Shown: positions 15,214-38,018 of the stretch, piece by piece
Layout: the number at the start of each line of letters is the position of its first letter
How positions within the stretch are numbered: position 1 is the stretch's first letter
NCBI GenBank assembly: GCA_945267035.1
Contig: CALYOS010000022.1
Location: forward strand, 1 to 38,018
Length of the DNA stretch: 38,018 nucleotides
Reading direction: 5' to 3'
Origin: an uncultured Neisseriaceae bacterium
Lineage (GTDB): Bacteria > Pseudomonadota > Gammaproteobacteria > Burkholderiales > Neisseriaceae
Notes under the pieces: model-generated
Databases searched by the model: none
What the model saw: only the letters and a program-made list of their open reading frames with translations
Told to the model about the DNA's origin: nothing
Made by a program: the position numbers and the translations under genes

Positions 15214-15214
15214 T

Positions 15215-22064: not shown

Positions 22065-22139
22065 ACCATATTCAATTTAATGGGATAAATTAACTGCAGA
22101 CTCCTTTAAATTTTGATTGTTATATGGTCAAGTGATGAG

Positions 22140-22174
22140 AACCGGATCTAACTTTGCTTAGATCCGGTTTTTTT
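22140..22174 (+). terminator. Strong terminator after the LysM protein gene
   Basis: AACCGGATCTA (22140-22150), loop ACTTTGCT and TAGATCCGGTT (22159-22169) form an 11-bp perfect stem, followed by a run of T to 22174. Confidence 0.92.
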
Positions 22175-22197
22175 ATCTTGCTGCAATTGAATACATG

Positions 22198-22399
22198 ACA
22201 TGCAAAAGATTTAAATGGGAAAGAAAATAGAGAAGAGGACCAAATTAAACTTGGGGAACAGAATATGTTTAAGTAATTCCTAATGTCTGATGGCAAAGTC
22301 AAAACGCCAAAGATGTTAATCATCCATAATGGTGCAGTAACTGAAAAAATAATAGCCATTCATATCAGTATTTTTGCCAGTGGTGGATTCTTTGAATAA
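22198..22399 (+). pseudogene. Possible decayed ORF of unknown family
   Basis: One frame gives HAKDLNGKENREEDQIKLGE followed by QNMFK, a TAA at 22274-22276, then FLMSDGKVKTPKMLIIHNGA and a hydrophobic end to TAA 22397-22399. The composition looks like protein rather than random AT-rich spacer, but there is no start signal and I do not recognise it. It may be a gene remnant with one nonsense change. Confidence 0.25.
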
Positions 22400-23120
22400 A
22401 GATGATTAAGGGGAAAAATCTAGCATTGGCTTTATTCAACCATACCCAAACAGTCTAAGAGCATCCATGTTGCATTGATATCCCTCTTTAAAGCGATAAG
22501 ATTGACTAAAACGTTGTTGGAAAGCTTAGTATCCAATAGTAGGGCTGGATTAACTAACCAATTTTGCGGAAATTTTCAGGCATCAAAATACCGTAACTTC
22601 GTCTGAATATCATCAATGAGCCTTTTCTTAAAGTATCTAAAAATAAAACCAAGGGTAGTTAAACTCTCAGCTATATATAGAGTAAATAAGTGTAAATATT
22701 AAATAACTTATTAATTAATATGTTTATTTTGATTGAAAATCTTAATCAAAGCTTTATTTAATAGCAGAAAAAATTGCTTTTGGAAAATCCATGAGACACG
22801 CTAAGTTTATATCCCAAGCGAAATGATTTAAAATAATGGGTTCGGTTTTAATTTTTAGATTTATCAATAGATTATTTTTTGCATCCTTATTCCGAAATGC
22901 CGTGGTGCAAATATTGTTTTCCAGTATGCAGTACTCACTCTAATTACTATCTGAATCACTCTATTCAGATATAGAGTTGCTTGTAGAAAAGTATTTTGTA
23001 TGGAATGCAGTTAATCAGCGTGTTATGTTTATCGCATATTTGATGATGCTGTTTTTTTAGGAAAAGTTTAATGTTGTCGATTGAAGAATTAATATGCTAA
23101 ATAGTTAATTCTTTGCTGGC
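22400..23120. other. AT-rich spacer upstream of the eight-gene cluster
   Basis: About 720 bases with stops in all frames. I see no tRNA, insertion-sequence ends or long ORF. One sequence at about 22590 ends TCGTCTGAA, like the end of a Neisseriaceae uptake sequence, but it is single and incomplete. Confidence 0.4.
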
Positions 23121-23140
23121 ATTTATCCACTGGGATAAAT
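23121..23140. repeat. Perfect inverted repeat, 8 bp
   Basis: ATTTATCC (23121-23128), ACTG, GGATAAAT (23133-23140). No T run follows, so it is more likely an operator or a structured element than a terminator. It is the first of three inverted repeats ahead of the cluster. Confidence 0.55.
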
Positions 23141-23193
23141 CTAATTTATTATTTTCAACCCTTTGGGGTTCAAAAAATCTGTTAATTTAATGC

Positions 23194-23215
23194 ATACAAT
23201 AAGCTTTTATTGTAT
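23194..23215. promoter_or_regulatory. Perfect 9-bp inverted repeat next to the cluster start, candidate operator
   Basis: ATACAATAA (23194-23202), GCTT, TTATTGTAT (23207-23215). The right arm overlaps TATAGA (23213-23218), a possible -10 element, 15 bases before the first gene. This placement suits a repressor site. A short leader hairpin is the alternative. A weaker AACCC/GGGTT pair (23157-23170) lies between this and the repeat at 23121. Confidence 0.45.
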
Positions 23216-23232
23216 AGATTACTTGGTAAACT

Positions 23233-23964
23233 ATGACTTATTTTGTACCTGTTGAAGAAATTAAATTTTGCCATAAAGAATTCTTTGGTGGCAATAATTT
23301 ATATCAGGACATTGTATTGTGTGACTTCGATGGAACCATCAGTGAAAAAGATGTCACTGATACTTTATTAGAGCATTTTGGCAATGAAAAATGTGAGCAG
23401 CTTGAACAGCAATGGCTCAATGGCATTATTGGCTCACGAGAGTGTATGCAGCTGCAGATTGCCAATATGACTGCCCGCTTGTCAGAACTGAATGAAGTTT
23501 TGGCACAAATTAAAATTGATCCAACTTTTGTAGACTTTGTGGATTTTGCTCAAAGGCAAAATTTAACTGTTCATATTGTCAGTGATGGATTGGATTATGC
23601 GATACAATCTATTTTGAAACGCTATAAACTTGATTTTTTACCCGTCTATGCCAATAAGTTGCTGTATGACGGTCAACAAAACTGGCAACTGCAATTTCCA
23701 TATGCCAGTAGTGACTGTGTGAAAGCCAGCGGTAATTGTAAGTGCCAGCATCGTCGCCAATTATCTGATTACAGAAAAGTATTTTATGTTGGTGATGGAA
23801 CTTCAGATTTTTGTGTGGCTGATAAAGTAGATTTGGTTTTTGCTAAGGATAAACTGATTGAATATTGTCAGCAGCATCAACTTCCATTTCAACCTATTGG
23901 TGCATTTAGTGATGTACTTACTATATTACCCAATTTGATTAATGCAGAATCAGTTTACAGTTGA
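23233..23964 (+). CDS. HAD-superfamily IB (MtnX-like) phosphatase
   Basis: The 243-residue protein has the HAD catalytic motif I CDFDGT (D31 nucleophile, D33 acid/base), a motif II region IVSDGLDYAI, and motif IV YVGDGTSDFC with the Mg-binding aspartates. The cap insertion after motif I and the overall length fit the IB subgroup with MtnX and phosphoserine phosphatase. A Cys-rich patch (ASSDCVKASGNCKCQH) precedes motif IV. It would remove phosphate from a small metabolite in the cytoplasm. MtnX itself works in methionine salvage, but no other salvage gene is near, so the substrate is probably a cluster-specific intermediate. It leads the plus-strand arm; the next start is 43 bases on. Confidence 0.85.
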   Translation: MTYFVPVEEIKFCHKEFFGGNNLYQDIVLCDFDGTISEKDVTDTLLEHFGNEKCEQLEQQWLNGIIGSRECMQLQIANMTARLSELNEVLAQIKIDPTFVDFVDFAQRQNLTVHIVSDGLDYAIQSILKRYKLDFLPVYANKLLYDGQQNWQLQFPYASSDCVKASGNCKCQHRRQLSDYRKVFYVGDGTSDFCVADKVDLVFAKDKLIEYCQQHQLPFQPIGAFSDVLTILPNLINAESVYS

Positions 23965-24007
23965 AAATGGGTGCGTTCACACTTTAATAAAAAAATGATT
24001 TCTTATT

Positions 24008-24829
24008 ATGATTCAAGATTGTTCTTATTTTTTAAAAGGTAACCGCAATGGAGTGCTGTTGATCCATGGTTTAACCGGTACGCCGAATGAAATGCGCATT
24101 ATTGCCAGAGGTCTAAACCAGGCAGGCTTTACCGTCTATGCTATGCAACTGGCCGGACATTGTGGCGATGAGGCAGATTTATGTCGCACAACCTGGCACG
24201 ATTGGTATGCAAGCGTAGAACAGTCAGCTAAGTTTTTGCAGCAGCATGTTGATCATATATTTGTGGCTGGTTTATCCATGGGTGCGCTTTTATCGTTAAA
24301 ACTGGCTGCTGATCATCCGCAAATGATTAAAGGTGTCGGGGTCTATGGCGTAACCTTTACTTATGATGGTTGGTCAATGCCATTTTGGGCAAAGCACCTT
24401 TTTTTCTTACTGACATGGCTGAAAAAACTACATCTGTTTCAAAAAACTTCATTTATTGAAAAACCACCTTATGGTTTGAAAGACGAACGCATTCGTGCGA
24501 CTGTATCAGCCAGTATGTTCAGTGGGGATAGTGCCAGTGCTGGACTAGCTGGTAATCCTTTTCCAGCCCTGGCAGAAATGCAGTGGCTGGCCAAAGAAGT
24601 GCGCCGGCAATTACCTCAAGTGACCGCACCTTGTCTCATTATGCATTCTGGGCATGACGATATTGCCAATATTCAAACCAATGCCCGTTTGGTGGAAGAA
24701 AATGTCAGTGGACCAACCAAATTCATCGTGTTAGATGATAGTTATCATCTCATTACCATTGACCGTCAGCGCCGTGAAGTGATTAACGAATCGGTCAAAT
24801 TTTTTCAAAATATTGTTCAGTCAGCCTGA
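24008..24829 (+). CDS. Alpha/beta hydrolase (carboxylesterase/S33-like)
   Basis: The 273-residue soluble enzyme has an oxyanion-hole segment LLIHGLTGTPNEMR, the nucleophile elbow VAGLSMGALL (Ser90), the acid in MHSGHDDIAN (Asp217 or 218) and the catalytic His247 in DDSYHLITID. The triad is complete and the layout matches monoacylglycerol-lipase or Est30-like carboxylesterases. A lid-like aromatic stretch (FWAKHLFFLLTWLKK) lies between strands 6 and 7. It could release or trim an acyl chain on the cluster's product, or act as a type II thioesterase; the substrate is unknown. It is transcribed with the phosphatase and followed after 30 bases by the first EamA-like gene. Confidence 0.85.
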   Translation: MIQDCSYFLKGNRNGVLLIHGLTGTPNEMRIIARGLNQAGFTVYAMQLAGHCGDEADLCRTTWHDWYASVEQSAKFLQQHVDHIFVAGLSMGALLSLKLAADHPQMIKGVGVYGVTFTYDGWSMPFWAKHLFFLLTWLKKLHLFQKTSFIEKPPYGLKDERIRATVSASMFSGDSASAGLAGNPFPALAEMQWLAKEVRRQLPQVTAPCLIMHSGHDDIANIQTNARLVEENVSGPTKFIVLDDSYHLITIDRQRREVINESVKFFQNIVQSA

Positions 24830-24859
24830 TTTAACCGAAATTTTAAGGAAACCGCCTTC

Positions 24860-25216
24860 ATGACGCTGATTGTTTTTATTTTATGGCTCGCTAATATCTG
24901 TTTTGATACCTTGGGTCAAACAGCATTCAAATATGCAGCAATAGCTCCTAATAATCGCGATGGTTGGTATTACTGGGTAGATTTATTCCGGAATTATTGG
25001 TTATGGATTGGCATTGGCTCTTATGTGGCTGAGTTTTTATTGTGGCTGGCTTTTTTAAGTCAGGTGCCCTTGTCCCAAGGAATATTGCTCGGTTCCATTA
25101 ATATTATCGTACTGATGCTGGTAGGCAGAGTTCTCTTCCAAGAAAAACTAACTCGATTCCGACTGATAGGCATGTTTTGTATCACCATAGGCGTTGTCTT
25201 GGTAGGAGTATCCTAA
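24860..25216 (+). CDS. Half-size EamA/SMR-like transporter subunit A
   Basis: The 118-residue protein has four predicted membrane helices (about residues 2-20, 40-62, 68-88, 95-116) and almost no loops. The sequence FDTLGQTAFKYAA in helix 1 mirrors FDTIGQCSFKLTA in the following gene, so the two are paralogues. Paired four-helix proteins of this size resemble ArnE/ArnF (lipid-linked aminosugar flippase) and MdtI/MdtJ (spermidine export), both heterodimers. AAGGAA precedes the ATG. Its stop overlaps the next start (TAATG). An exporter or flippase for the cluster's product is the natural inference. Confidence 0.8.
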   Translation: MTLIVFILWLANICFDTLGQTAFKYAAIAPNNRDGWYYWVDLFRNYWLWIGIGSYVAEFLLWLAFLSQVPLSQGILLGSINIIVLMLVGRVLFQEKLTRFRLIGMFCITIGVVLVGVS

Positions 25217-25623
25217 TGCGTAAATTTTATCTGATTGGTTTTGCACTCCTACTGTTGTTTGATACCATCGGGCAGTGTAGCTTTAAATTAACGGCTAACC
25301 ATGCTCAACCTCTGATGGCTAATATGGAGTGGATTATGCGCGTATTTACCCAGCCTTGGGTATATATTGCAGTGCTGGGCTATATTGGCGCATTTTTTAC
25401 TTGGATGATTTTGCTTAAAAAAGCGCCTGTTGGTCCTGCATTTGCCGCTTCACATTTAGAGGTCGTGACAGTGATGTTGGTTTCCGCTTTTCTATTTCAT
25501 GAACACATCACCATAACTAGAACAATAGGTGCAGTTTTTGTCGTAGCTGGGATTCTATTTTTGGCTTTTGCTGAGAAACAATTGGTTCAGAGTGAGGCAG
25601 ACAACCATCACGATCCTGTATAA
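25216..25623 (+). CDS. Half-size EamA/SMR-like transporter subunit B
   Basis: The 135-residue protein has four predicted membrane helices and a short charged tail (QLVQSEADNHHDPV). It is the paralogue of the preceding gene (shared FDT-x-GQ-x-x-FK motif in helix 1). A longer reading from 25177 would add 13 basic residues encoded inside the previous gene. ATG 25216 has AGGAG eight bases upstream and overlaps the previous stop, so it is preferred. This subunit has the acidic FHEH...IGAVFVVAGI end typical of EamA repeats. The two probably form a heterodimer. Confidence 0.8.
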   Translation: MRKFYLIGFALLLLFDTIGQCSFKLTANHAQPLMANMEWIMRVFTQPWVYIAVLGYIGAFFTWMILLKKAPVGPAFAASHLEVVTVMLVSAFLFHEHITITRTIGAVFVVAGILFLAFAEKQLVQSEADNHHDPV

Positions 25624-25650
25624 CTCTCTTACATACGGGTAAAAGCGCAT

Positions 25651-26841
25651 ATGCTTAAACGCCATTATGAAAATCCCCCTACTGCCGGTTTGCCAGTTAA
25701 ATGGCGAGATTGGCTGCCTAATAGCCAGTCTTTAGCCAACGTAGCCAGTCATTTTCTGCATTTGCCAGATGTCGAAATTACCTGCTCTGGCACCGCAGCT
25801 TTGGTCATCATTTTAAGCAGTTTGGCGCAGCAAAATCCACAGCGTAAGAATGTTATTGTGCCTGCTTATACTTGTCCTCTGGTTGCCTTAGCGATTCATC
25901 ATTGTGATTTAAAAATACAATTATGTGATTTGCAACCTGATAGTATCGATTTAGATATCAAGCATTTGGCTACCATGGCTAATGAAGAAGTGCTGGCGGT
26001 GATTCCAACCCATCTTGGAGGGCGAGTAACTGATGTGCAATCTGTAAAGCACGTGGTGCAGCCATACCAGATCAGTGTAATCGAAGATGCAGCGCAAGCC
26101 TTAGGTGCTGATGTGGGGCATCATGGCGATGCTGTTTTGTTTAGTCTGGCAGCAGGCAAAGGCCTCACCATGTTTGAAGGTGGTCTATTTTCATCACCTC
26201 ATCCGAACTTACGTGCTCAATTTCGTACTACTGCCAGCAAATCTTTACCGTGGCAATGGAAATGGGAATTAAGGCGAATTATTCAGTTATTGGGTTATAG
26301 CGCGTTATACAATCCCTATGGTTTGCATTTTGTTTACGGTCAGGGAAGGCGTAAAGCTTTACGCCAGCAGCAATGGATTAGTGCTGTGGGAGACGATTTT
26401 GATTTTGCTATTCCAATGCATCAGGTCAGCCGTTGGCGTCAATATGTCGCTGTTAATGCATTTGCTCGCTTACCAGCTTTTTTAGCCTTGTTGCAACAAC
26501 AAGCACAACAACGATTACAACAATTGGAAACCATTAACGGCGTACAGGTTATCCAGGATAAATATGCAACTGGAGTTTGGCCTTTTTTAATGTTGTTATT
26601 GCCGACCACTCAGCAGCGTGATGCAATTATGGCGAAGCTGTGGCCTAGCCCTTTAGGCGTGACTCGTCTGTTCATCCATACATTGGCACAATATGATTAC
26701 TTGCAGTCGATCGTACCTCATAGCGCTGTGCCCAATGCACAGGATTTTGCTGCACGGATGTTAACCATTACCAATAGTCCTTGGTTAACCGATTCTCAAT
26801 TTGAACAAATATGTGAGGTCATTCAGACAGAGGTAAGCTAA
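25651..26841 (+). CDS. DegT/DnrJ/EryC1/StrS-type PLP aminotransferase
   Basis: The 396-residue fold-type I PLP enzyme has CSGTAALVIIL for the phosphate-binding loop, VIVPAYTCPLVALAI, AVIPTHLGGRVTDV, Asp146 in VIEDAAQALGA, and the probable PLP lysine Lys170 in FSLAAGKGLTMFEGG. These are the landmarks of the DegT/StrS family, which usually aminates keto-sugars but also other carbonyls. The C-terminal third is Gln-rich and less conserved. It ends the plus arm, and its stop overlaps that of the convergent arginase-like gene by three bases. No sugar-nucleotide enzymes are nearby, so a non-sugar substrate is plausible. Confidence 0.82.
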   Translation: MLKRHYENPPTAGLPVKWRDWLPNSQSLANVASHFLHLPDVEITCSGTAALVIILSSLAQQNPQRKNVIVPAYTCPLVALAIHHCDLKIQLCDLQPDSIDLDIKHLATMANEEVLAVIPTHLGGRVTDVQSVKHVVQPYQISVIEDAAQALGADVGHHGDAVLFSLAAGKGLTMFEGGLFSSPHPNLRAQFRTTASKSLPWQWKWELRRIIQLLGYSALYNPYGLHFVYGQGRRKALRQQQWISAVGDDFDFAIPMHQVSRWRQYVAVNAFARLPAFLALLQQQAQQRLQQLETINGVQVIQDKYATGVWPFLMLLLPTTQQRDAIMAKLWPSPLGVTRLFIHTLAQYDYLQSIVPHSAVPNAQDFAARMLTITNSPWLTDSQFEQICEVIQTEVS

Positions 26842-27713
26842 TGAGCACTCAAGGCATTCAATAACTGTAAATTAACTTTATGATGTTGTGCTTGCCATTG
26901 TGCCAAAGTTTCTGCTGGAATCTCTTCTTGTTTATCCATGGCACTCAACAACCGTTTAAGTAAACTGGTATATTGCCATTGCGACACTTCACCAGTGATA
27001 TCACTGCCAATAATACGTTGCTTCAGAGCACCGATCACAGTCAGGATATCATCTAATTGCATCCGTCCTTGATCCCAATTGGTTTGTACCACATCCTTAC
27101 TCAATACATCCTTATCGATAGATATATAGACCGGTTCATGACTTGTCTGCTGGGCTTGTATGAATGCTTGAATTAAATCGGTTGGTGAAGAAAACCTTTG
27201 AAACGCTTTGCCTAAACCGATTTTATCAGCCCAGCTTACATCAACGTCCATACTCCAATAAGTCAATTTATTAAGCCATAACGGTTTAAGCCGATTTTCC
27301 CAACTATGTGCTAACCCAATATCATTCGAGGTAATCCCCAGGACATGTACATGACTAACAAAAGGCAATTGAGCAACATAGCTCACCCATGATCCGCAAT
27401 GAATCCCGAATAAATAACGCATATTGTCGGGATGATTATCGAAAACCACAATTTGAATCGGTTTATCAGTACTAAAAAATTTTTTCAAGCGTTGAATAAG
27501 ATATAACGAAATGTGGTGATAATCTCCACTGCCCAGTAAAACCGTTCCATAGCGATCTGGTAATTTATGGTCTAACTCGGTAGCTAATCGAAGAAATTGA
27601 GATTTGTAGCAGCCGAAGCGAATAGCTTCCTGCCACTGGCCCAACTCAATCGTCAAAGCTTCATCATCATGTCCTGCACTTTGATCGAAATCTAAAACCA
27701 CCGTTTTATTCAT
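26838..27713 (-). CDS. Divergent arginase/agmatinase-fold hydrolase
   Basis: The 291-residue protein keeps the binuclear-metal motifs of ureohydrolases in altered wording: GSGDYHH (residues 61-67) for GGDHS, DNHPD (92-96) for DAHxD, and SIDKDV (198-203) for SxDxD. This supplies the six expected ligands (His66 or 67, D92, H94, D96, D200, D202). SDITGE near the end corresponds to the usual DxxE. It would hydrolyse a guanidino or similar C-N bond, or an acetylpolyamine-type amide if it resembles the deacetylase branch of the fold. Its ATG overlaps the stop of the acyltransferase gene (TAATG). The substrate is unknown. Confidence 0.78.
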   Translation of the reverse strand: MNKTVVLDFDQSAGHDDEALTIELGQWQEAIRFGCYKSQFLRLATELDHKLPDRYGTVLLGSGDYHHISLYLIQRLKKFFSTDKPIQIVVFDNHPDNMRYLFGIHCGSWVSYVAQLPFVSHVHVLGITSNDIGLAHSWENRLKPLWLNKLTYWSMDVDVSWADKIGLGKAFQRFSSPTDLIQAFIQAQQTSHEPVYISIDKDVLSKDVVQTNWDQGRMQLDDILTVIGALKQRIIGSDITGEVSQWQYTSLLKRLLSAMDKQEEIPAETLAQWQAQHHKVNLQLLNALSAH

Positions 27714-28825
27714 TATGAACGTTTTTCCTGATTAGATAACTTACTGGTATTTTGCTGCCAATTTTTATCTTGTTCGAAACGATTACTGATTTTCTTCAAA
27801 ATCATTCTTAGCAGCGGATTACGAACATATACCATATGTTTCGTAAAAGTGAATCGTGCTCCCAGTGAGGCTTTAACCTCAGGATCAGTCCAGCCAGCTA
27901 CATAATAGTCCAGACCTTGATTTTTAGCATAAGCCAAATTATAGAACCAGCTCACAAAATAAAGATTCAAATCACGTGCCAGCGGATAACTGAAACCTAT
28001 ATACTTATCAATCAGCATATTGTTTACAATAAAACAGATGTTATAGCCAACCAATTGTTGCTGATGGTGATAAGTAATCACTCGAGCCTGATTTTTTTCA
28101 TCTTGCAATAATTGAATGAAGAATTCCTTAGTCAATAAATCAAAATGAATTTCACTCTGATGATAGACATTCAAATAAAGCTGATAAAAATTATCTAGAA
28201 CTGCCGGATCAAAAAAGCACTCGTTACCACTATGCAGACAATTTATCTCAAGAGATTGCTGCGATTTCAATTTGCGACGGAAATTTTTTCTACGCTGATA
28301 GGATAATCTGCTTAAATATTCATCAACATCAGCAAAATCTATCGGTACCCAAGCCAGTGCTTGTCCCTCAACTTCAATAAAATCCTGATTTTGCAGTGCT
28401 TGAATCACTGCAGCAGAATATTGATTGGCCTGCTCAGATAACAAAGGAGATTGTTGCGGAATATCCTTGACAATTAACAGGGGTGCTTTAGCCGTATAGT
28501 GCTGTTTGATTTGTGCAGCGAGTTGTTCGGGTGATAGCTCAGCAGTAAAAAGTGCGTATTCAGATACCGTAGTACCAATGAAAATGGTGTATGGCTTAAG
28601 TAAATTTTTCCACTTATTAAACAGAGGAAGACCTTTGACTTTAACTTGTAAATCATGGTCGGCCGTGGTGAGTAAATCAAAACGCGCGGCGAAGGCGGGT
28701 ACTTCGTTCTGAATAAGCCAGGAAGTGAAATCCTGCGGAGGGAAAGTCAGAAAATTATCGACTAATTCATCTGGTTCGAGTTGAGTTAAATATTTCATAG
28801 CGTCCTGTAAAGGAGACTGAAGCAA
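27713..28825 (-). CDS. FemAB/GNAT-like (GNAT_6/BioF2-type) acyltransferase
   Basis: The 370-residue protein has a variable N-terminal half and a C-terminal GNAT-like domain (about 180-345). The latter contains LSYQRRKNFRRKLK, LDNFYQLYLNVYHQSEIHF, ARVITYHHQQQLVGYNICFI and DKYIGFSYPLARDLNLYFVS, the layout of peptidoglycan-bridge/FemAB-type and GNAT_6 proteins. The likely reaction is acyl or aminoacyl transfer to an amine. The start at 28825 is TTG, but it has AAGGAGG (28831-28837) at a 5-base spacing, a near-perfect ribosome site. ATG 28798, with CAGGA upstream, is the alternative (361 residues). It lies between the class III aminotransferase and the arginase-like gene in one operon. Confidence 0.75.
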   Translation of the reverse strand: MLQSPLQDAMKYLTQLEPDELVDNFLTFPPQDFTSWLIQNEVPAFAARFDLLTTADHDLQVKVKGLPLFNKWKNLLKPYTIFIGTTVSEYALFTAELSPEQLAAQIKQHYTAKAPLLIVKDIPQQSPLLSEQANQYSAAVIQALQNQDFIEVEGQALAWVPIDFADVDEYLSRLSYQRRKNFRRKLKSQQSLEINCLHSGNECFFDPAVLDNFYQLYLNVYHQSEIHFDLLTKEFFIQLLQDEKNQARVITYHHQQQLVGYNICFIVNNMLIDKYIGFSYPLARDLNLYFVSWFYNLAYAKNQGLDYYVAGWTDPEVKASLGARFTFTKHMVYVRNPLLRMILKKISNRFEQDKNWQQNTSKLSNQEKRS

Positions 28826-28830
28826 ATCAG

Positions 28831-28837
28831 CCTCCTT
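28831..28837 (-). promoter_or_regulatory. Strong Shine-Dalgarno for a TTG start
   Basis: AAGGAGG on the minus strand, five bases from TTG 28825. It decides the start of the acyltransferase gene. Confidence 0.6.
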
Positions 28838-28847
28838 ATAGCGTGAC

Positions 28848-30275
28848 TTAAGCGTTTAATTCTTTTTTAGCACGCGTAATTAACTGATCCAGTAACTCAA
28901 TACCCTGATCAATTTCTGCTTTACTGATGTGTAGAGAAGGAGCAAAAGTGATTACATTTTTATAATAACCACCAATATCTAACACCAGCCCCATTTTTTG
29001 ACCGTTCCAGTCCAAGTCTCCAGACATACCGATATCAACCATTTTATCAACCAAAGCTTTATTCGGCGTAAATCCGTCTTCAGTACAGATTTCAGCACGT
29101 AATGCCAAACCCAAACCATCAACTTCACCGATTTCCTTATGACGCTGTTCCAGCGTTTTTAGACCTTCCAGGAAATATGCACCACTTTCCATAACCATTG
29201 ATTCATAATCCGTTTCGGCCATCATTTTAAATACTTCCAATCCCACAGCAGTGCCTAATGGATTAGACGCAAAAGTAGAATGAGTAGAACCTGCAGGGAA
29301 TATTTGCGGATTAATTAATTCTTCCCGTGCCCATAAGCCGCCTAGCGGATTCAAACCGTTAGTCAACGCCTTGGCAAATACCAACATATCCGGCTGCACA
29401 TCAAAATGTTCAATGGACCAAAGTTTGCCGGTACGATAAAAACCCATCTGAATTTCATCTACAACCAGTAAAATTCCATACTGATCTAGAACCTTCTTCA
29501 GCCCTTTAAAATAATTGCGAGGCGGAACAATATAGCCACCCGTGCCCTGCAACGGTTCCACATAAAAAGCCGCATACTCAGCTTGACCAGCTTTAGGATC
29601 CCAGACCCCATGATATTCAGTCTCAAACAAGCGCGCAAAATCTGCGACCAGATGCTCACCATATTCTTCTGCAGTCATTCCTTTGGGACGTCGGAAAGGA
29701 TAGGGGAAAGGAATAAACATCGCCCTATCACCAAAATGACCATAACGGCGGCGGTAACGGAAACTAGATGTGATAGATGATGCACCAAGAGTACGCCCGT
29801 GATATCCACCTTCAAAAGCAAACATCAATGTTTTACCATTTGAAGCATTCCGAATAATTTTCAGCGAGTCTTCAATACATTGAGAACCACCAACATTGAA
29901 ATGCACCCGACCATCCCGACCAAATTTCTCTTTCATATCTAAAGCAATGGTTTTTGCCAGTTCAATTTTAGTTGGGTGTAAATACTGACTCGCACATTGT
30001 GGTAACGTATCAATCTGTTGCTTTAACACAGAATCCAGCCGTTCATTTGCATAGCCAAAATTGCAGGCTGAGTACCACATCTGCAAATCTAAATAAGGCG
30101 TACCATTCTTGTCATACATATAGCTGCCTTCGCAGCCGTCAAAAATTTTAGGTGGGTTGACATAGTGTACCGTGTCACCAAAAGAACAATACTTAGCTTC
30201 ATCAGCCAATAACGCTGCATCGTCAGGACGATTTTTTAGCGTTTCTGCACAAGGCTTACTCATCATTAAATCCAT
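28848..30275 (-). CDS. Class III PLP-dependent aminotransferase
   Basis: The 475-residue fold-type I enzyme of the omega-aminotransferase group (4-aminobutyrate, ornithine and lysine-6 type) has FNVGGSQCIEDSLKIIRNAS, FEGGYHGRTLGASSIT for the PLP-stacking aromatic, the acidic pair in LLVVDEIQMGFYRTGKLW, the Schiff-base lysine Lys302 in FAKALTNGLNPLGG, and STHSTFASNPLGTAVGLEVF. It would interconvert a terminal amine and an aldehyde with a keto acid as partner, such as diaminobutyrate or a polyamine. ATGs at 30275, 30266 and 30263 are all possible; GGA five bases before 30266 makes one of the last two likely. It heads the minus arm of the cluster. Confidence 0.9.
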   Translation of the reverse strand: MDLMMSKPCAETLKNRPDDAALLADEAKYCSFGDTVHYVNPPKIFDGCEGSYMYDKNGTPYLDLQMWYSACNFGYANERLDSVLKQQIDTLPQCASQYLHPTKIELAKTIALDMKEKFGRDGRVHFNVGGSQCIEDSLKIIRNASNGKTLMFAFEGGYHGRTLGASSITSSFRYRRRYGHFGDRAMFIPFPYPFRRPKGMTAEEYGEHLVADFARLFETEYHGVWDPKAGQAEYAAFYVEPLQGTGGYIVPPRNYFKGLKKVLDQYGILLVVDEIQMGFYRTGKLWSIEHFDVQPDMLVFAKALTNGLNPLGGLWAREELINPQIFPAGSTHSTFASNPLGTAVGLEVFKMMAETDYESMVMESGAYFLEGLKTLEQRHKEIGEVDGLGLALRAEICTEDGFTPNKALVDKMVDIGMSGDLDWNGQKMGLVLDIGGYYKNVITFAPSLHISKAEIDQGIELLDQLITRAKKELNA

Positions 30276-30342: not shown

Positions 30343-30612
30343 TCAAAACGAAATTAAGAAATATTTAAACCCAACTATACTCAATATCATGCTAACCAGG
30401 ATAACCCTAATAAAGAGCGCAAAAATGTAAAATGCCATCTCTATTGTGGAAACATATTGCATAGAATTATTAATTCCATCAAAACCGTACCTCTGCCTGA
30501 TCATTACAGATGGAAAATATTTAATCAATAAATATATGTAAATTAAGAGTAATTTTACCAATATTGATTTGTCAGATGGAATAAATACCGCTAAAACCAG
30601 CCATAATAGCAT
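30343..30612 (-). CDS. Possible small membrane protein
   Basis: From ATG 30612 the frame encodes 89 residues with three hydrophobic stretches (MLLWLVLAVFI, LLLIYIYLLI, FALFIRVILVSMILSIVGF) separated by polar turns such as RQRYGFDGINNSMQYV. That pattern resembles a real membrane protein more than chance. There is no clear Shine-Dalgarno sequence, the family is unrecognised, and extending the frame to 30732 would run antisense into the MFS gene. It fills the gap between the class III aminotransferase and the MFS gene. It could be a remnant. Confidence 0.35.
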   Translation of the reverse strand: MLLWLVLAVFIPSDKSILVKLLLIYIYLLIKYFPSVMIRQRYGFDGINNSMQYVSTIEMAFYIFALFIRVILVSMILSIVGFKYFLISF

Positions 30613-30623
30613 TGAAGAATCAA

Positions 30624-31823
30624 ATGACAGGTATTGCCATGAGTTCCGTAAACAACCAAATAAAGCATCCACATTGGCTATTATTTGCCCTTGCAGTGGG
30701 TGGTTTTGCCATTGGTACAACCGAATTTGCAACCATGAGCGTCTTACCCTATATCGCTCAAGGTTTGCATATTAGTGAACCTAAAGCTGGTCACCTAATT
30801 AGCATTTACGCCATTGGTGTTGTAATTGGCGCACCTTTAATCGCCGTATTTGCAGCCAGATTCAGTCGTCGCAGCCTATTATTAATACTCATGGCTTTCT
30901 TTGCACTTGCTCACCTTGGCACCATGTTGGCCCCTAATTATTACAGCATCATGCTATTTCGGTTTTTAAGTGGCTTACCCCATGGTGCCTACTTTGGAGT
31001 AGGGGCATTAGTGGCTGCCGCCATGGTTCCACCAGCCAAACGAACACAGGCTGTTGGTCTCATGATGATTGGTTTAACCATCGCCACAACCATCGGTGTA
31101 CCTTTAAGTAGCTGGTTAGCTCAAGCCGTAGGCTGGCGCGTAATCTTTTTAATTGTGGCAGTCTTGGCAGCTGTGACCGTTATCTTGGTCGCTCTATTTC
31201 TACCTACTTCTAGTATGCGCGGTGGTGCCAGTAATGCTTTACGAGAACTCAGTGCGTTGACCAATCGACAAATCTGGCTGACATTGGCTATTGGTGCAAT
31301 AGGATTTGGAGGTATGTTTGGTATATATGCCTACATGGCTTCTGCCTTGGAAAATATAACCGGTATGTCGGCCAAAATCGTTCCGCTAGTCATGTGTTTA
31401 TATGGAGTAGGGATGACGCTAGGGAACATCATCATTCCGCGATTAGTAGGTCGTCATGTTATGTTAGGATTAGGCTGGTTACTGGTCTGGTCTGCAGCCA
31501 TGCTGGCTTTATATCCCTTCGCGCTACATCATCCTTATTGGGTTTGCATTCAAGTCGTTCTTATTGGCATGAGTGGTGCAGTCGGTACACTATTACAAAT
31601 ACGCTTGATGGATGTGGCCAAAGATGCTCAAACACTTGCTGCAGCACTCAACCACAGTGCATTCAATGCTGCCAACGCCTTAGGTCCTTTTCTGGGTGGA
31701 TTGACCATCAATGCGGGCTGGGGATGGGCAAGTACTGCCTGGGTTGGTGTAGCTCTGGCTATCATCGGTCTGATTGTCTGGTGGTACACCTTAAGAGATG
31801 AGCGTAGAGAAAGCAAAGAGTAA
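30624..31823 (+). CDS. MFS transporter, DHA1 family (AraJ/YdhP-like)
   Basis: The protein of about 399 residues has twelve predicted membrane helices. GTTEFATMSVLPYIAQGLHIS in helix 1 is a hallmark of the AraJ/YdhP/SotB branch of DHA1 exporters (G.TEF...G.LP.IA). The motif A loop between helices 2 and 3 reads FAARFSRRSLLL, and the motif C-like region of helix 5 is MIGLTIATTIGVPLSSWL. Probable substrates are drugs, sugars or arabinose-like compounds, effluxed with the proton gradient. ATG 30624 and ATG 30639 are both possible; the latter has ACAGG seven bases upstream. The gene lies next to the eight-gene cluster but is separated from it by divergent orientation. Confidence 0.88.
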   Translation: MTGIAMSSVNNQIKHPHWLLFALAVGGFAIGTTEFATMSVLPYIAQGLHISEPKAGHLISIYAIGVVIGAPLIAVFAARFSRRSLLLILMAFFALAHLGTMLAPNYYSIMLFRFLSGLPHGAYFGVGALVAAAMVPPAKRTQAVGLMMIGLTIATTIGVPLSSWLAQAVGWRVIFLIVAVLAAVTVILVALFLPTSSMRGGASNALRELSALTNRQIWLTLAIGAIGFGGMFGIYAYMASALENITGMSAKIVPLVMCLYGVGMTLGNIIIPRLVGRHVMLGLGWLLVWSAAMLALYPFALHHPYWVCIQVVLIGMSGAVGTLLQIRLMDVAKDAQTLAAALNHSAFNAANALGPFLGGLTINAGWGWASTAWVGVALAIIGLIVWWYTLRDERRESKE

Positions 31824-31979
31824 GTGCAACAGATCTTAGAACAATTATTCCACCCGCGTAAAAGATAAATGTAAAAAATTAACCATCATTAATAAATATT
31901 GATAATATAACTATGCTATGAAAATAGTAAATCGTCAAAAAATGACTTGCCAAACAAATATTTATTAAAGGAGAGAATA

Positions 31980-32861
31980 ATGGCTACAAACGAAGACGAA
32001 CAAACAGGTGTCATTATTCAGTCAACAGAATCAAATGCAACAAATAGTGACCATAAAATAGATCCCAGCAAAAAGCATAAAAAGCAAAAAAAACTGTCTA
32101 AAAAGAAATATTACAAAGAGTTGGAAAAGCTCCAAGGTGAGATGGTTGCCCTACAGGAATGGGTGAAAGCCACGGGACAAAAAATCTGTATCATCTTTGA
32201 GGGTCGTGATGGAGCAGGAAAAGGAGGAGCAATTAAAGCTGTCACCGAACGAGTGAGTCCTCGTGTTTTTCAAGTGGTGGCTTTACCGGCACCAAATGAA
32301 CGCCAGAAAACACAAATGTATATGCAACGCTATATTCCTTTGCTACCCGCAGCAGGCGAAGTAATTATCTTTGATCGAAGCTGGTATAACCGTGCTGGTG
32401 TGGAGCGAGTAATGGGTTTTTGTACCGAGCAGGAAAGCAAAGAATTTCTTGAGGTTATTCCGTTTATGGAAAAAGCCATCGTTAATTCCGGCGTCATTTT
32501 GCTGAAATATTGGCTTGAAGTAAATATGGAGGAACAGAGAAAACGCATGCTAGGTAGAATTAACGACCCACGGAAAATTTGGAAACTGTCTCCGATGGAC
32601 ATCAAATCTTATAGTCGTTGGTATGATTATTCTCGTGCGAGAGACGAAATGATTATGTCCACAGATACCTCCTGGGCTCCATGGTTTGTAGTCGATTCGA
32701 ACGATAAAAAGAAAGCACACCTAAATATTATTCGTCATATACTTAGCGAAATCCCCTATAAAAAAACACCACATAAAAAAGTAGAGTTGCCCAAAAGACA
32801 GGAAAAGGGTGATTACCAAGAGCCTAACTATCCTTATCGTTATATTCCGCAAAATTATTAA
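31980..32861 (+). CDS. ppk2: Polyphosphate kinase 2, class I
   Basis: The 293-residue enzyme phosphorylates nucleoside diphosphates from polyphosphate or runs in reverse. Walker A is FEGRDGAGKGGAIK (Lys81). The lid and second motif region contains PAPNERQKTQMYMQRYIPLLP and IFDRSWYNRAGVERVMGF (the Walker-B-like DRSWYNR), followed by KMLGRINDPRKIWKLSPMDI-type residues and YDYSRARDEM. The domain is single, so this is class I. The N-terminal 45 residues are Lys-rich and variable. ATG 31980 has AAGGAGAG about five bases upstream and is clearly better than the upstream frame start at 31947. Confidence 0.95.
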   Translation: MATNEDEQTGVIIQSTESNATNSDHKIDPSKKHKKQKKLSKKKYYKELEKLQGEMVALQEWVKATGQKICIIFEGRDGAGKGGAIKAVTERVSPRVFQVVALPAPNERQKTQMYMQRYIPLLPAAGEVIIFDRSWYNRAGVERVMGFCTEQESKEFLEVIPFMEKAIVNSGVILLKYWLEVNMEEQRKRMLGRINDPRKIWKLSPMDIKSYSRWYDYSRARDEMIMSTDTSWAPWFVVDSNDKKKAHLNIIRHILSEIPYKKTPHKKVELPKRQEKGDYQEPNYPYRYIPQNY

Positions 32862-33874: not shown

Positions 33875-36097
33875 TTAAACACGGTCTCGGTTATGAGATA
33901 TCAAATTATAAAACAGGGATTCAATCTTTTTGGCAAAGATACCTGTAGTAAATTTCTCCTGAAAACGTTCCCGTCCTAACTCTCCAAATTTATGACGAAG
34001 ATCTTCATCAATTAAAAGTTTTTCGATAGCTGCCTTTAGGGCTTGTGCATTATCAGGAGGAACAAGTAATCCAGTCTTTTGATCATCAATAACTTCAGGA
34101 ATACCACCTGCCGTAGTTCCAATACAAGGCTTTCCAAAGCGCATTGCTTCAATATAAATTAAACCGAAGCTTTCATAGCGACTAGGAGCGACAAAAATAT
34201 CACAGTTTGCATATAAACACTCAAGTTCCCCATCATTAACATATCCAGGAAAATTAATGCGTGACAACCATGGCTTGCCACCATGTTTTTCTAAAAATAT
34301 TTCTTCATAAGTTTTACCATCTTTTGATGGTAAGGTTTTATCTCCAACACAAACTATCTCTAATTGAGGAAATTCCTCCATTAATTCTGGAAGTATTTCA
34401 AGTAATAAATCTATACCTTTACGATGTTCAAACCTACCAACATAAAGCAAATTCACTTTGTTAGAATCATTTTGTTCTGATGGTGAGATAGTTGTATATG
34501 CTTCAGATACACCAAAAGGTATTATACTTAGTTTTTCAGGATTGAAATGAAGTTGATATGCTTTTTCGGTATCTTGTGCTATAGCGTTTGTACTGGATAA
34601 AACATGAGAAACGTGTCTAAGAGCCCAACCTTCAGCCTCAATCATTTTTAGCACGTGATTATGATAAAACTCTTCGTTAGATTTCCATTCAGCCTTAGAT
34701 TCTTCCATGAGCTTGTAATTCGTCACTAAATACATTGCTGTAGGGTATTTTTGTGAGGCTATGATGGCAGCCATATCCAGATCCCATATCGTACCAATAA
34801 CATAATCAAATTGACGGTATTTATTGACACGATTCAATTCAGCTAAAATCTTTCCTGCGTTCTTTTTTGGCCCTTCAGGCATATCTGGCATATTGGGGGG
34901 TAATTCAATATCAACACTATCATCTTGAGGTAGCCGGTGTACCCAAACGCTATTTTCAAAATCTACAGTGTGTCCACAACCATTATCAGCTTGGGTAATA
35001 ACAGTGATTTCATGCCCTAGCTTTGCAAGTTCAATTGCAAGATTGTATATGAATACAGCCACTCCACCGCAAGGGCGTGGTGGATAAAGAGCAGTCACAA
35101 AAGCAAGGCGAAGTCTTTTATTAGAAGGAATTTTTCGAGGCAGATTTAAAAAAGTTGTTTTTTCAAATTCTCCTATAAGCTGGCGTGGCGTATGAGCAAA
35201 AGCATCGAATAAGCCCTTACGGTATCCCTCTTCAATCTCTTTAATCAAAGAATCAAATTTAGATTTATCAATAAAACCATTTTTAAAATAAATTTCAGTT
35301 TCATTTCGTCGGTTTTGTAACTCTTCCCAAATAAATTCTAATTTTTCAGACATTGGTTTATGAGGCGACATATTCTTTAATATGTAGTAACAAGTACTTT
35401 TTATAACCTCAAACCAAGACTGAATAAAATTTTTTTTATTACGTATATGGCTAGGTGCGTATTTATGATGAACCTGAGCATCAGGAATTATTTTAACATC
35501 ATATCCAGCGTCAATCATTCGAACAATTACATCTGTTTCATCAAGATAATAGGCGTATTCTTCATCAAATCCACCAACTTCTAAAAGTGCAGATCTTAAA
35601 AAAGATGAGTTAACTCCAATTAATGCAACAAAATTGTCTGCTCCTGGTTTAGCTACTGGTAATTTTGTTTCATCAGAAATAAGTGTTTCAGATCTTGAAT
35701 TTCTTGAACTAATAATATATTTAGTTTGAAATTCTACACCAGTGTGGTTTCTTACCCACCCACCAGCAGCTCCAACCTTAGGATTATCATATGCTAACGA
35801 CAAACTATCTAACCAGTCAAATTCAGGAATACCATCATCATCAGTAAAACAAATTATGTCTCCGCTGGCATTTTTAATGCCAATATTTCTCGATTTACTT
35901 AGATTAGCTTCATTGCATTTGCATATTTTAATTTTGTCTTTCCACTCTTTATTTAAATATTCGAATGTACCATCTGTACTTGGTCCATCAACAACTATAA
36001 CCTCTAATTCGGGATAACGAAGTAATTCGATAGCGTGTAGAGATATAGATAAAGTTTTTAATCTGTTATAAGTACAAATTACAAGCGATATTTTCAT
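33875..36097 (-). CDS. Bifunctional glycosyltransferase, GT2-GT4 fusion
   Basis: The 740-residue protein has an N-terminal GT-A family 2 domain (about 1-250): SLVICTYNRLKTLSISL, DGPSTDGT, and the metal-binding DDD at 86-88 in CFTDDDG. A charged helical linker (about 255-320) follows. The C-terminal GT-B family 4 domain (about 328-735) has LYPPRPCGGVAVFIYNLA, LLYVGRFEHRKGIDLLLEIL and the E-x7-E pair (Glu642, Glu650) in ESFGLIYIEAMRFGKPCIGT followed by GGIPEV. It would add two sugars to a growing glycan in the cytoplasm. It is the second gene of a two-gene operon (60-base gap after the methyltransferase) and is much richer in A+T than neighbouring core genes, suggesting transfer. Confidence 0.9.
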   Translation of the reverse strand: MKISLVICTYNRLKTLSISLHAIELLRYPELEVIVVDGPSTDGTFEYLNKEWKDKIKICKCNEANLSKSRNIGIKNASGDIICFTDDDGIPEFDWLDSLSLAYDNPKVGAAGGWVRNHTGVEFQTKYIISSRNSRSETLISDETKLPVAKPGADNFVALIGVNSSFLRSALLEVGGFDEEYAYYLDETDVIVRMIDAGYDVKIIPDAQVHHKYAPSHIRNKKNFIQSWFEVIKSTCYYILKNMSPHKPMSEKLEFIWEELQNRRNETEIYFKNGFIDKSKFDSLIKEIEEGYRKGLFDAFAHTPRQLIGEFEKTTFLNLPRKIPSNKRLRLAFVTALYPPRPCGGVAVFIYNLAIELAKLGHEITVITQADNGCGHTVDFENSVWVHRLPQDDSVDIELPPNMPDMPEGPKKNAGKILAELNRVNKYRQFDYVIGTIWDLDMAAIIASQKYPTAMYLVTNYKLMEESKAEWKSNEEFYHNHVLKMIEAEGWALRHVSHVLSSTNAIAQDTEKAYQLHFNPEKLSIIPFGVSEAYTTISPSEQNDSNKVNLLYVGRFEHRKGIDLLLEILPELMEEFPQLEIVCVGDKTLPSKDGKTYEEIFLEKHGGKPWLSRINFPGYVNDGELECLYANCDIFVAPSRYESFGLIYIEAMRFGKPCIGTTAGGIPEVIDDQKTGLLVPPDNAQALKAAIEKLLIDEDLRHKFGELGRERFQEKFTTGIFAKKIESLFYNLISHNRDRV

Positions 36098-36157
36098 AAA
36101 TTTGCCTCAATTAAAATATATTTAATCAGCATAAATTTCAAGTTTCAAAAATATAAA

Positions 36158-37111
36158 CTATTTTGTTGCGTGAATTTCAAATTCAAAACATAAACCGTTT
36201 CTTCGACCTTCAGCGATTAAATCAACCTTAGAAAAACCTACTTGTTTTAATAATTCTATTGTTGATTCTGAAGTCAGCATATTGAAATGGAAGTCACCAT
36301 CATACTCTTGAGAACCATACATAACTTCACGAAAATCATCATAAGGTATCTCACCCATATAATAGGCATTTATCATTGCTTGGGCATCAGGCGCTAACAC
36401 AATTAGTTTTCCATCTTCTTTAAGTAATGAAAACCAATGAGGAAGAATACTATCAGTTAACTCATAAAGCGTAAAATGCTCAATTAAATGAGATGCATAT
36501 ATTGTACTGATAGAGTTTTTTTCAAATTCTAAACTTCCTGCATCAGCGACAATATCAATATTAGGAAGTTCACGATTATCAATATTAATAAAATCTTCTT
36601 TAATTAAATGCCCACAGCCTACGTTCAGATGTAAGTTAGATGCATTTTTAAGTTTATCTTCATTTAAAATTTTAAACTTCTTATGTTGAGAAGAATTCTG
36701 AAAATCTACTTTCAATTTTCTTAAATTCATTTGCAATTCAAAAAAAATTTCTTTACGAATAAATTCTATTCTATCTCGAATATCTTTATTTTGAATTTTT
36801 ATATTACTCAAATCTATGTCGAGGGATTTTAAATTACGATCTACACACGTAACTTTATCTTTATATTCTTTTACCTCGTGCAAATGATTGGATAAATTAT
36901 CTAATGAATTATTCATTCCAAAAATCATTGCACCAATTGCATCTACCATTCTGAGGTTTTTTTCTTCCATCTGTTCTAATTGATTTGTTAAGTTTATTAT
37001 TTGGCTCTTTAGAATATCTAAATTTTCCTTTGTTTGAGGTGTTTTCCAAAGCGCATTTGGCAACTTGATAAGTCGTTTAAAAATATGTTTTATTTTTTTT
37101 TCGAATCTCAT
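36158..37111 (-). CDS. SAM-dependent methyltransferase with N-terminal coiled coil
   Basis: The 317-residue protein has a basic start, a long heptad-rich helical region (about residues 25-130, LKSQIINLTNQLEQMEEKNL), and a Rossmann methyltransferase domain from about 158. That domain holds the AdoMet motif LHLNVGCGHLIKEDFINIDN, DIVADAGSLEF, ISTIYASHLIEHF and LLKEDGKLIVLAPD. This is the layout of predicted methyltransferases found in polysaccharide loci, where a coiled coil can act as a molecular ruler or tether on chain-terminating enzymes. TTG 37123 is an alternative start, but ATG 37111 with GGG upstream is preferred. It is the first gene of the operon with the glycosyltransferase, and is AT-rich. 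Confidence 0.85.
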   Translation of the reverse strand: MRFEKKIKHIFKRLIKLPNALWKTPQTKENLDILKSQIINLTNQLEQMEEKNLRMVDAIGAMIFGMNNSLDNLSNHLHEVKEYKDKVTCVDRNLKSLDIDLSNIKIQNKDIRDRIEFIRKEIFFELQMNLRKLKVDFQNSSQHKKFKILNEDKLKNASNLHLNVGCGHLIKEDFINIDNRELPNIDIVADAGSLEFEKNSISTIYASHLIEHFTLYELTDSILPHWFSLLKEDGKLIVLAPDAQAMINAYYMGEIPYDDFREVMYGSQEYDGDFHFNMLTSESTIELLKQVGFSKVDLIAEGRRNGLCFEFEIHATK

Positions 37112-37123
37112 AATTGTACCCAA

Positions 37124-37938
37124 TGCTGAAAGGATTTATAAATTGGCAATGAAAAAACGCTATACACTATTTAATAAACTTAATACTCTAGTATTTGTAA
37201 AATACTAGAAGGGGTTAAATCAAAAAATAACAAAACCAAGAAGTTATTTAAGCTAACTTTACATAATTTGCTTATTAGAGTCAAATAATTAATTACCTTT
37301 TATTTATTAATTAATTAAATATATTCCAAAATAAATTTGACCTAATGCATTAATGGATTTAGTCAGACAAAAACTTAGATAAACATAGTGAATCCAAAAA
37401 AATATTTAGGTACTATTATACTTTAATTACATAGAACATTTTTTTATTAACTGTAATGTATCGTTAAAAATATCGATCTATATCATTTTATTTGACCTTT
37501 CAGCCATGTTTAATTCTTAGAAGAACTGTATTACTTAATTGAACCACAACAAAAATAAACGATATTAAGTATAGTATCGATATAAATTTTCCGCTCATAC
37601 AAAATATAAATTTATCTTAGGCGTAAATTAATTGTGCTGAAGTATTCAATATATAATAGTATAATTAATAGATTCTAAATTTATACTATGGCTTATTTAT
37701 AATTAGCATTTAGACATTTCGAATGAAATTCTAAAAAACGATCTTGAATTTATTATCAAGAAACGAAGAAATAGATTGTGCTAGAAAGACTTATTCTATT
37801 TTTGTACAAAAAAATGTTTCAAGATTATCAAATGACTTAATATAGTAAAAAGATATGATTTATCAAATTTCTTAGATATAGATAAGTTAAGATTTATGTT
37901 CGCTAAAGTATTAGAATTTTTCTATCTTAATTCTATAA
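37124..37938. other. Very AT-rich spacer before rsmE
   Basis: About 800 bases with no reading frame of interest. A perfect inverted repeat TCTAGTATT/AATACTAGA lies at 37187-37209, about 75 bases upstream of the methyltransferase start. A CTTGA/TCAAG pair near 37743-37760 is weak. Confidence 0.45.
37187..37209. repeat. Perfect inverted repeat upstream of the glycan operon
   Basis: TCTAGTATT (37187-37195) and AATACTAGA (37201-37209) with a 5-base gap, extendable to 10 bp. It is placed where a regulator of the minus-strand operon could bind, or where a small hairpin could form in the leader. Confidence 0.45.
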
Positions 37939-38018
37939 TTACCTCGCGAAGTCACCCCACAATATCTGCATGGCAGAAATAGCTGCTAATGAAGCTGTTT
38001 CCGTGCGTAAAACACGTG
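37939..38018 (-). CDS. rsmE: 16S rRNA (uracil1498-N3)-methyltransferase, 3' end only
   Basis: The minus strand from the window edge encodes RVLRTETASLAAISAMQILW and then GDFAR before TAA 37939-37941. RsmE proteins end in LGPR-x-LRTETA-x-LAA....Q..WGD, an unmistakable C-terminus belonging to the SPOUT knot that binds AdoMet. It methylates U1498 of 16S rRNA. The rest of the gene lies beyond the window. Spacer GC falls sharply right after its stop. Confidence 0.9.
   Translation of the reverse strand, partial: RVLRTETASLAAISAMQILWGDFAR

Follow-up and report, generated by a model that had tools for sequence, protein, structure and literature searches.

A gene set of Snodgrassella and other Pseudomonadota, probably spread by horizontal transfer, that may make, aminoacylate and export a cationic amine

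The DNA analyzed here (the window) comprises 38,018 nucleotides of contig CALYOS010000022.1 (assembly GCA_945267035.1) from an uncultured Neisseriaceae bacterium, whose genome assembly contains 2.32 Mb in 83 contigs. A cluster of eight intact open reading frames (ORFs) spans positions 23233-30275 and is organized in two convergent operon-like arms. The forward arm encodes a HAD-IB phosphatase of the MtnX-like subfamily (HAD, 243 amino acids, 23233..23964), an alpha/beta hydrolase (ABH, 273 amino acids, 24008..24829; PF12146, 81 bits), two EamA/SMR-like half-transporters (EamA1, 118 amino acids, 24860..25216, and EamA2, 25216..25623) and, as accessory member, a DegT-family aminotransferase (DegT, 25651..26841; PF01041, 130 bits). 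The reverse arm encodes a class III aminotransferase dependent on pyridoxal phosphate (PLP) and assigned to a distinct subfamily (AT3, 28848..30275), a double-GNAT transferase of predicted FemX/MprF fold (GNAT, 27713..28798; PF04339, 61 bits) and an arginase-fold metallohydrolase (ARG, 26838..27713). DegT ends at 26841 on the forward strand and ARG at 26838 on the reverse strand, and therefore the stop codons overlap at the junction of the arms (26838..26841). This tail-to-tail layout had been described in an original prediction made from the sequence; all eight ORFs claimed in it are present, and the family names that it gave agree with Pfam, with NCBIfam and with the two predicted folds (GNAT and ARG). 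The most likely start of EamA2 is the ATG at 25216, inside the stop codon of EamA1. For GNAT, the ORFs and the start in locus L001 point to the ATG at 28798 as the most likely start and not to the TTG at 28825, up to which the frame remains open.

The distribution of the gene set was analyzed from ARG, scanning one genome per species; this yielded 165 relatives, and the 80 best loci were retained. Presence of the other families in these loci was determined by tblastn within up to 10 kb, with matches containing internal stops counted as present. GNAT was found in 80/80 loci, EamA2 in 72, EamA1 in 71, AT3 in 70, ABH in 63, HAD in 62 and DegT in 47. A set complete except for DegT was present in 58 of the 80 loci and the full set of eight in 36, the corresponding figures for the 61 loci with full flanks being 48 and 29. 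Carriers among the 80 loci include Snodgrassella, Gilliamella, Frischella, Orbus, bee and other Bartonella, Acinetobacter, Oxalobacter, Wohlfahrtiimonas, Delftia, Stenotrophomonas and Pantoea. Internal stops in the range called by the script affected the GNAT of L001, L027, L053 and L078, the AT3 of L062 and the EamA2 of L065 and L080, and these sequences were left out of the alignments yet kept in the tally. The GNAT alignment (A3) is also without L043 and L079, alignment A5 has the 32 rows of alignment A1 except L079, L083, L084 and L085, and the AT3 alignment (A4, 31 rows) was reduced to 30 orthologue rows by exclusion of the class III enzyme of L085 as a non-orthologue (22% identical).

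A screen of 397 genomes of the phylum, with thresholds of E 1e-3 for ARG, E 1e-120 for the AT3 subfamily and E 1e-30 for GNAT, has revealed ARG in 21 genomes, AT3 in 28 and GNAT in 19, the matches being confined to 13 to 17 of 232 genera. ARG and AT3 were found together in 20 genomes, ARG alone in one and AT3 alone in eight (Fisher p 3e-26, kinship ignored), and all 19 GNAT genomes also carry ARG. The distance between AT3 and ARG does not exceed 15 kb in 18 of the 20 shared genomes; they lie about 150 kb apart in G386 and on different contigs in G198. A search of the AT3 DNA against E. coli genomes gave no match, and 49 plasmid records contained a match, five of which were examined. The grouping of the eight genes is not due to chance, and chance neighborhood was rejected on the basis of this co-occurrence and co-location across genomes. 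Five loci with full flanks count against a fixed set, namely L025, L026 and L028, in which GNAT and ARG are the sole cluster genes, and L056 and L073, in which AT3, GNAT and ARG stand alone.

Separate housekeeping genes that have become neighbors by chance (MtnX, ArgD, SpeB, EmrE and an esterase) would agree with automatic annotation, which gives those names in a Snodgrassella gene table, within the accessible portion of that article (PMC9239279). The entries there, for all groups, are YvaK (273 amino acids), EmrE (118 and 135), SpeB (296), MtnX (248) and ArgD (471). The called lengths in the Snodgrassella-like locus L003 equal the first five entries, and ArgD differs, with 475 amino acids here. 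Judged by names and lengths, at least five cluster genes are probably entered in this table; in the same portion of the article they are given singly, unmarked as transferred, and the cluster is not mentioned (PMC9239279). The co-occurrence and the reshuffled co-location across classes, together with the missed equivalog cut-offs for MtnX, ArgD and GabT, have largely refuted the housekeeping explanation, which is considered very improbable.

Both gene order and strand are variable among the relatives, and the convergent arms are only one of many arrangements. The recurring blocks are HAD-AT3-ABH, GNAT-ARG and EamA-EamA(-DegT). GNAT directly precedes ARG at the positions listed for the 80 ARG loci, with a median gene overlap of 4 bases in the 76 loci measured (starts called by script). 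Immediately ahead of GNAT, 52 of the 80 loci have AT3, and in 4 HAD is located immediately before AT3. The eight AT3-only genomes lack a GNAT match at E 1e-30, and they show an adjoining ketosynthase in four cases, an adjoining carrier protein in three and an EamA pair within the examined stretch in one; the AT3 match of one of them (G105) has an internal stop. HAD and ABH are found beside AT3 in seven of these eight genomes, so that arms occurring independently elsewhere, which the original prediction had named as an observation that would speak against it, were partly found. A profile search for DegT in 17 genomes gave a strong match in five (L003, L023, L024, L032 and L067) and a weak, partial or no match in 12, and in Orbus (L024) the gene is located away from the cluster. 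DegT is dispensable to the gene set. The earlier proposal of one functional gene set was sustained by co-occurrence and co-location, although DegT is optional and the two arms are not units. The remaining AT3-only genome (L108) has a sulfotransferase gene behind its AT3 relative (55%), with none of the other queried cluster genes nearby.

The predicted model of GNAT (pLDDT, the predicted local distance difference test score, 93) displays a double-GNAT fold, for which the best matches are the aminoacyl-tRNA-dependent peptide synthases Sbb17 and Sba18, followed by FemX, alanyl- and lysyl-phosphatidylglycerol synthases and MprF. This fold is common to the FemABX/MprF proteins and to natural-product GNAT-fold transferases (FemX, MprF, Sbb17, Orf11), and GNAT differs from FemABX/MprF in that its gene is paired with one for an arginase-fold enzyme, its use of aminoacyl-tRNA being putative. 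In the accessible part of PMC12945691, GNAT-fold proteins with two GNAT domains are counted among aminoacyl-tRNA transferases, and Lys305 is given as the key residue in FemX; in a motif comparison by eye, this lysine is comparable to Lys318 of GNAT, which lies in a [VI]-K-x-x-L-G motif in 32/32 rows (PMC12945691). Since the GNAT model is nearest to aminoacyl-tRNA-dependent transferases, aminoacylation appears likelier than plain N-acylation. Of the N-acyl amine product proposed originally, the amine fits the families found and the N-acyl part is the less likely one in view of this model.

ARG scored 26.2 bits with PF00491 (cut-off 22), and its predicted model (pLDDT 92) has its best fold matches in agmatinase and arginase, at 11-18% identity. 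Residues H66, H67, D92, H94, D96, D200 and D202 are invariant in 32/32 rows and H105 is conserved in 31/32, so that the two-metal ligand set of ureohydrolases (H, DxHxD, DxD) is found in 32/32 rows. In ureohydrolases a guanidinium-binding Glu follows the last metal-ligand Asp, and the acidic residue (Glu/Asp) at position 242 of ARG, one position off the expected place, may be counted in favor of guanidine chemistry. ARG therefore shares predicted fold and metal ligands with ureohydrolases (arginase, agmatinase and proclavaminate amidinohydrolase); it differs from them in the low identity, in the nearly invariant motifs TNWDQG and GIHCGSW, in an invariant Gly241 and in having no match among NCBIfam models at E 0.01.

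A fold nearest to agmatinase, together with half-transporters that resemble the SMR class, would suit a polyamine-like or N-acyl amine pathway with an agmatinase-type step, N-acylation by GNAT and MdtIJ-like export. However, neither a decarboxylase nor an aminopropyltransferase is present among the shared families, the NCBIfam result for ARG offers no agmatinase assignment, and GNAT has the double-GNAT fold of FemX type. A pathway of this kind is considered quite improbable, and in its strict polyamine form it was rejected because the shared families include no polyamine-forming enzymes and ARG falls in no NCBIfam model. The polyamine product of the original prediction is unsupported, as no finding points specifically to polyamines.

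Among the remaining enzymes, HAD scored 113 bits with TIGR01489 (cut-off 81.6), with the DFDGT motif in 60/62 homologues, and ABH homologues contain a G-x-S-M-G motif in 61/63 cases. MtnX of methionine salvage was rejected for HAD (109 and 94 bits versus equivalog cut-offs of 292 and 303). AT3 scored 240 bits with PF00202 (cut-off 30.5) and was not accepted as ArgD (209.5 with the argD model versus a cut-off of 410) or as GabT (189.7 with GABAtrnsam versus 506.7). It shares the catalytic PLP-binding Lys302 and Asp273 with class III aminotransferases and racemases (GabT, alanine/serine racemase), and it differs from them in the missed equivalog cut-offs, in Thr443, present in 30/30 orthologue rows in place of an Arg before the C-terminal Pro in the three PDB relatives shown, and in an RYRRR stretch whose Arg173, Arg175, Arg176 and Arg177 are invariant in the same 30 rows. 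By these sequence features, AT3 is a distinct and conserved class III subfamily. The invariant Arg stretch and the neighboring HAD gene led us to consider that its substrate may be phosphorylated. Transamination of a beta-ketoacyl substrate, for which iturin-type enzymes are a precedent, was also considered as a possible reaction, in concert with the ketosynthase and the carrier protein found in some relatives. The ketosynthases checked are FabF-like, score below the fabF cut-off and, in most full matches, contain the Cys and HGTGT motifs. In DegT, Lys170 is invariant in 21 rows.

EamA1 is slightly below the PF00892 cut-off of 28.2 (26.2 bits) and EamA2 is above it (36.7 bits). Residues Asp16, Phe23 and Lys24 are invariant in both halves, with Asp16 in 36/36 rows. 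In SMR transporters the first membrane helix contains an acidic residue (Glu14 in EmrE), and Asp16 agrees with this pattern, the correspondence to Glu14 having been drawn by eye; the half-transporter profile found EmrE in the PDB at E 1e-6. Like ArnE/ArnF and the SMR pairs (MdtIJ, EbrAB, EmrE), the two proteins are adjacent four-helix halves, and the similarity to these is weak; they differ in the missed equivalog cut-offs, in the invariant Asp16 and Lys24 of both halves and in genomic context. Assignment to ArnF/ArnE was rejected (27.1/22.3 bits for half 1 and 33.5/30.5 for half 2, versus cut-offs of 99/92), as was SMR membership by PF00893 (19.4 bits for half 2 versus a cut-off of 23.7, and no match for half 1).

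The MprF and Arn pathways reduce the negative charge of the envelope, and the product of the gene set could similarly remain there as a lipid, lipopolysaccharide or peptidoglycan precursor, with the half-transporters acting as a lipid flippase. Such a modification would be consistent with the closeness of the GNAT fold to MprF and FemX and with the weak ArnE/ArnF scores, as well as with several neighbors of the relatives. In two of them the regulators come closest to the models RstA/RstB (Gilliamella) and TctD/PmrA (Xanthomonas), below the cut-off in every case, a MipA/OmpV-like family is found near 20/81 sources (one member checked with Pfam), and the diverged cluster form of Roseomonas lies near UppP. 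Nevertheless, the ArnE/ArnF cut-offs are missed by far, the common families include no glycosyltransferase, and the TolC/ABC genes of some relatives suggest release, so that envelope modification is regarded as somewhat unlikely. Response-regulator and kinase families were found near 38/81 and 39/81 sources, respectively, and ABC-permease-like and TolC-like genes in 15/85 loci each (query loci included); in Xanthomonas sacchari and on an Agrobacterium plasmid, the gene set is accompanied by a TolC/ABC exporter and two-component genes. On two Bartonella plasmids (L081 and L082), AT3-GNAT-ARG adjoin an SGNH protein resembling AlgX and an MBOAT O-acyltransferase (Pfam applied to L081), which may point to a different route of export or transfer.

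The closest relatives of the ARG of the window are those of seven Snodgrassella loci and one Neisseriaceae genome (72-80% identity), and the host is therefore regarded as Snodgrassella or a very close organism. Trees of AT3 and ARG were constructed with 35 chosen loci of the 80 plus the window. In both, Snodgrassella groups with Gilliamella and two other Orbaceae (support 100/99 for AT3 and 95/87 for ARG), with Frischella and Orbus outside this group (outer forks 98/96 for AT3, 84/83 and 87/78 for ARG). The AT3 of the window is 88-90% identical to full Gilliamella copies, compared with 44% for the sliding clamp DnaN, and within the host family AT3 was found in 11/14 genomes of the genus (that of the window included) and in 0/69 genomes of other genera. 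The position of the Snodgrassella copies among Orbaceae suggests that the gene set was transferred between Orbaceae and Snodgrassella. This opposes the gene loss elsewhere that is favored for most such genes by the authors of PMC9239279, in the portion of the article available.

With a probability of about 0.42, we propose that this horizontally spread gene set serves to make a cationic amine, which may be an aminolipid, to aminoacylate it and to export it; all reactions, their order and the product are inferred from the gene set, its conservation, predicted folds, active-site residues and co-occurrence. AT3 would form the amine from a precursor that is a ketone or an aldehyde, while HAD would remove a phosphate and ABH an acyl or ester group. 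The FabF-like ketosynthase and carrier protein of some relatives make it possible that the precursor is acyl-derived. GNAT would then transfer an amino acid from aminoacyl-tRNA to the amine, which, as judged from the predicted fold, is the firmest step of the model, and ARG, whose gene overlaps that of GNAT, would edit the product. Export of the cation would be the task of a heterodimer of the two half-transporters, perhaps assisted by the TolC/ABC pump in some species, and DegT would provide a second, optional amination. An amine-containing product that is made and exported, as originally predicted, fits the families of these genes, which co-occur as one set. The boldest part is the guess that the amino acid transferred from its tRNA is arginine, with later removal of urea: GNAT would arginylate the amine or aminolipid and ARG would hydrolyze the guanidine, leaving an ornithyl group, which is carried by no tRNA, on the exported amine. 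This version is viewed as unlikely.

Several observations weigh against the proposed pathway. ARG is missing from 8 of the 28 AT3 genomes, which would make aminoacylation an add-on, and among the 80 ARG loci a ketosynthase match was found in only 6 and a carrier-protein match in 4, both genes being absent from the cluster of the window. In ARG, the guanidinium-binding Glu would, in an ungapped comparison, coincide with the invariant Gly241, which leaves a guanidine substrate conjectural. The fold matches of GNAT have moderate template modeling (TM) scores of 0.42-0.54 in the first 26 matches, and its profile found no relevant match among PDB sequences up to E 1, which also separates it from FemABX/MprF. 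The top PDB match of the half-transporter profile is an unrelated designed protein. Finally, neither a regulator nor a TolC/ABC pump was found among the neighbors of the cluster in the window, and the missing regulator tells against envelope modification as well.

Comparison of cluster-bearing and cluster-free genomes provides the probable limits of the transferred island. In the cluster-free G489 (99% complete), which belongs to the three genomes of the genus lacking AT3, the LysM gene is directly followed by an RNA methyltransferase gene, which in the cluster-bearing L002 adjoins the PPK2 gene; in consequence, the island probably extends from after LysM to PPK2, as seen at a single empty site. 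In another cluster-free genome (G487, 99% complete) LysM has a different neighbor, and in the 60% complete G484, also cluster-free, LysM was not found. An MFS transporter gene (30612..31823, forward strand), a probable passenger of the island, is beside the cluster in seven of the eight Snodgrassella-like loci (L001-L008) and gave no match in three cluster-free stretches (L127, L128 and L130). The second PPK2 gene (31947..32861, forward strand; PF03976), the probable far end in Snodgrassella, is present in all eight loci. Among six genomes tested a close copy (89%) was confined to the cluster-bearing one; the cluster-free genomes have a PPK2 copy elsewhere (48-51%, and in G487 also one of 31%), and the second PPK2 appears to travel with the island. 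The region 33875-38018, where L002 has the RNA methyltransferase gene after PPK2, shows a low guanine-cytosine (GC) content (24-36%) and encodes a two-domain glycosyltransferase.

Upstream of the cluster, about 1.2 kb (22065-23232; GC about 32%) contain no frame of at least 80 amino acids and no Rfam family, and a terminator-like hairpin is located at 22137-22172. Scanning of the window for Rfam families and for tRNAs gave no match, and a promoter scan gave 17 sites, fewer than the 30.4 in shuffled sequences. Beyond rsmB and fmt, a Sigma-54-type response regulator and a HAMP/PAS histidine kinase are encoded at 13942-17326, a pair that we take to be NtrX/NtrY-like.

The literature search results contained no description of the cluster or of a pathway with this gene set, in agreement with the original remark that no described pathway of this composition was known. 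A whole biosynthesis-and-export gene set of bee-gut bacteria and scattered Pseudomonadota thus appears to be hidden behind housekeeping names, and the putative aminoacyl transferase and the arginase-fold protein would be a new enzyme pairing. If the ornithine version were true, a class of ornithyl-amines would be common to the bee-gut symbionts Snodgrassella, Gilliamella, Frischella and bee Bartonella and also to Acinetobacter, Delftia, Xanthomonas and others. If the product is an exported cationic compound or an aminolipid, it would provide a chemical handle on the coexistence of Snodgrassella and Gilliamella at the gut wall.

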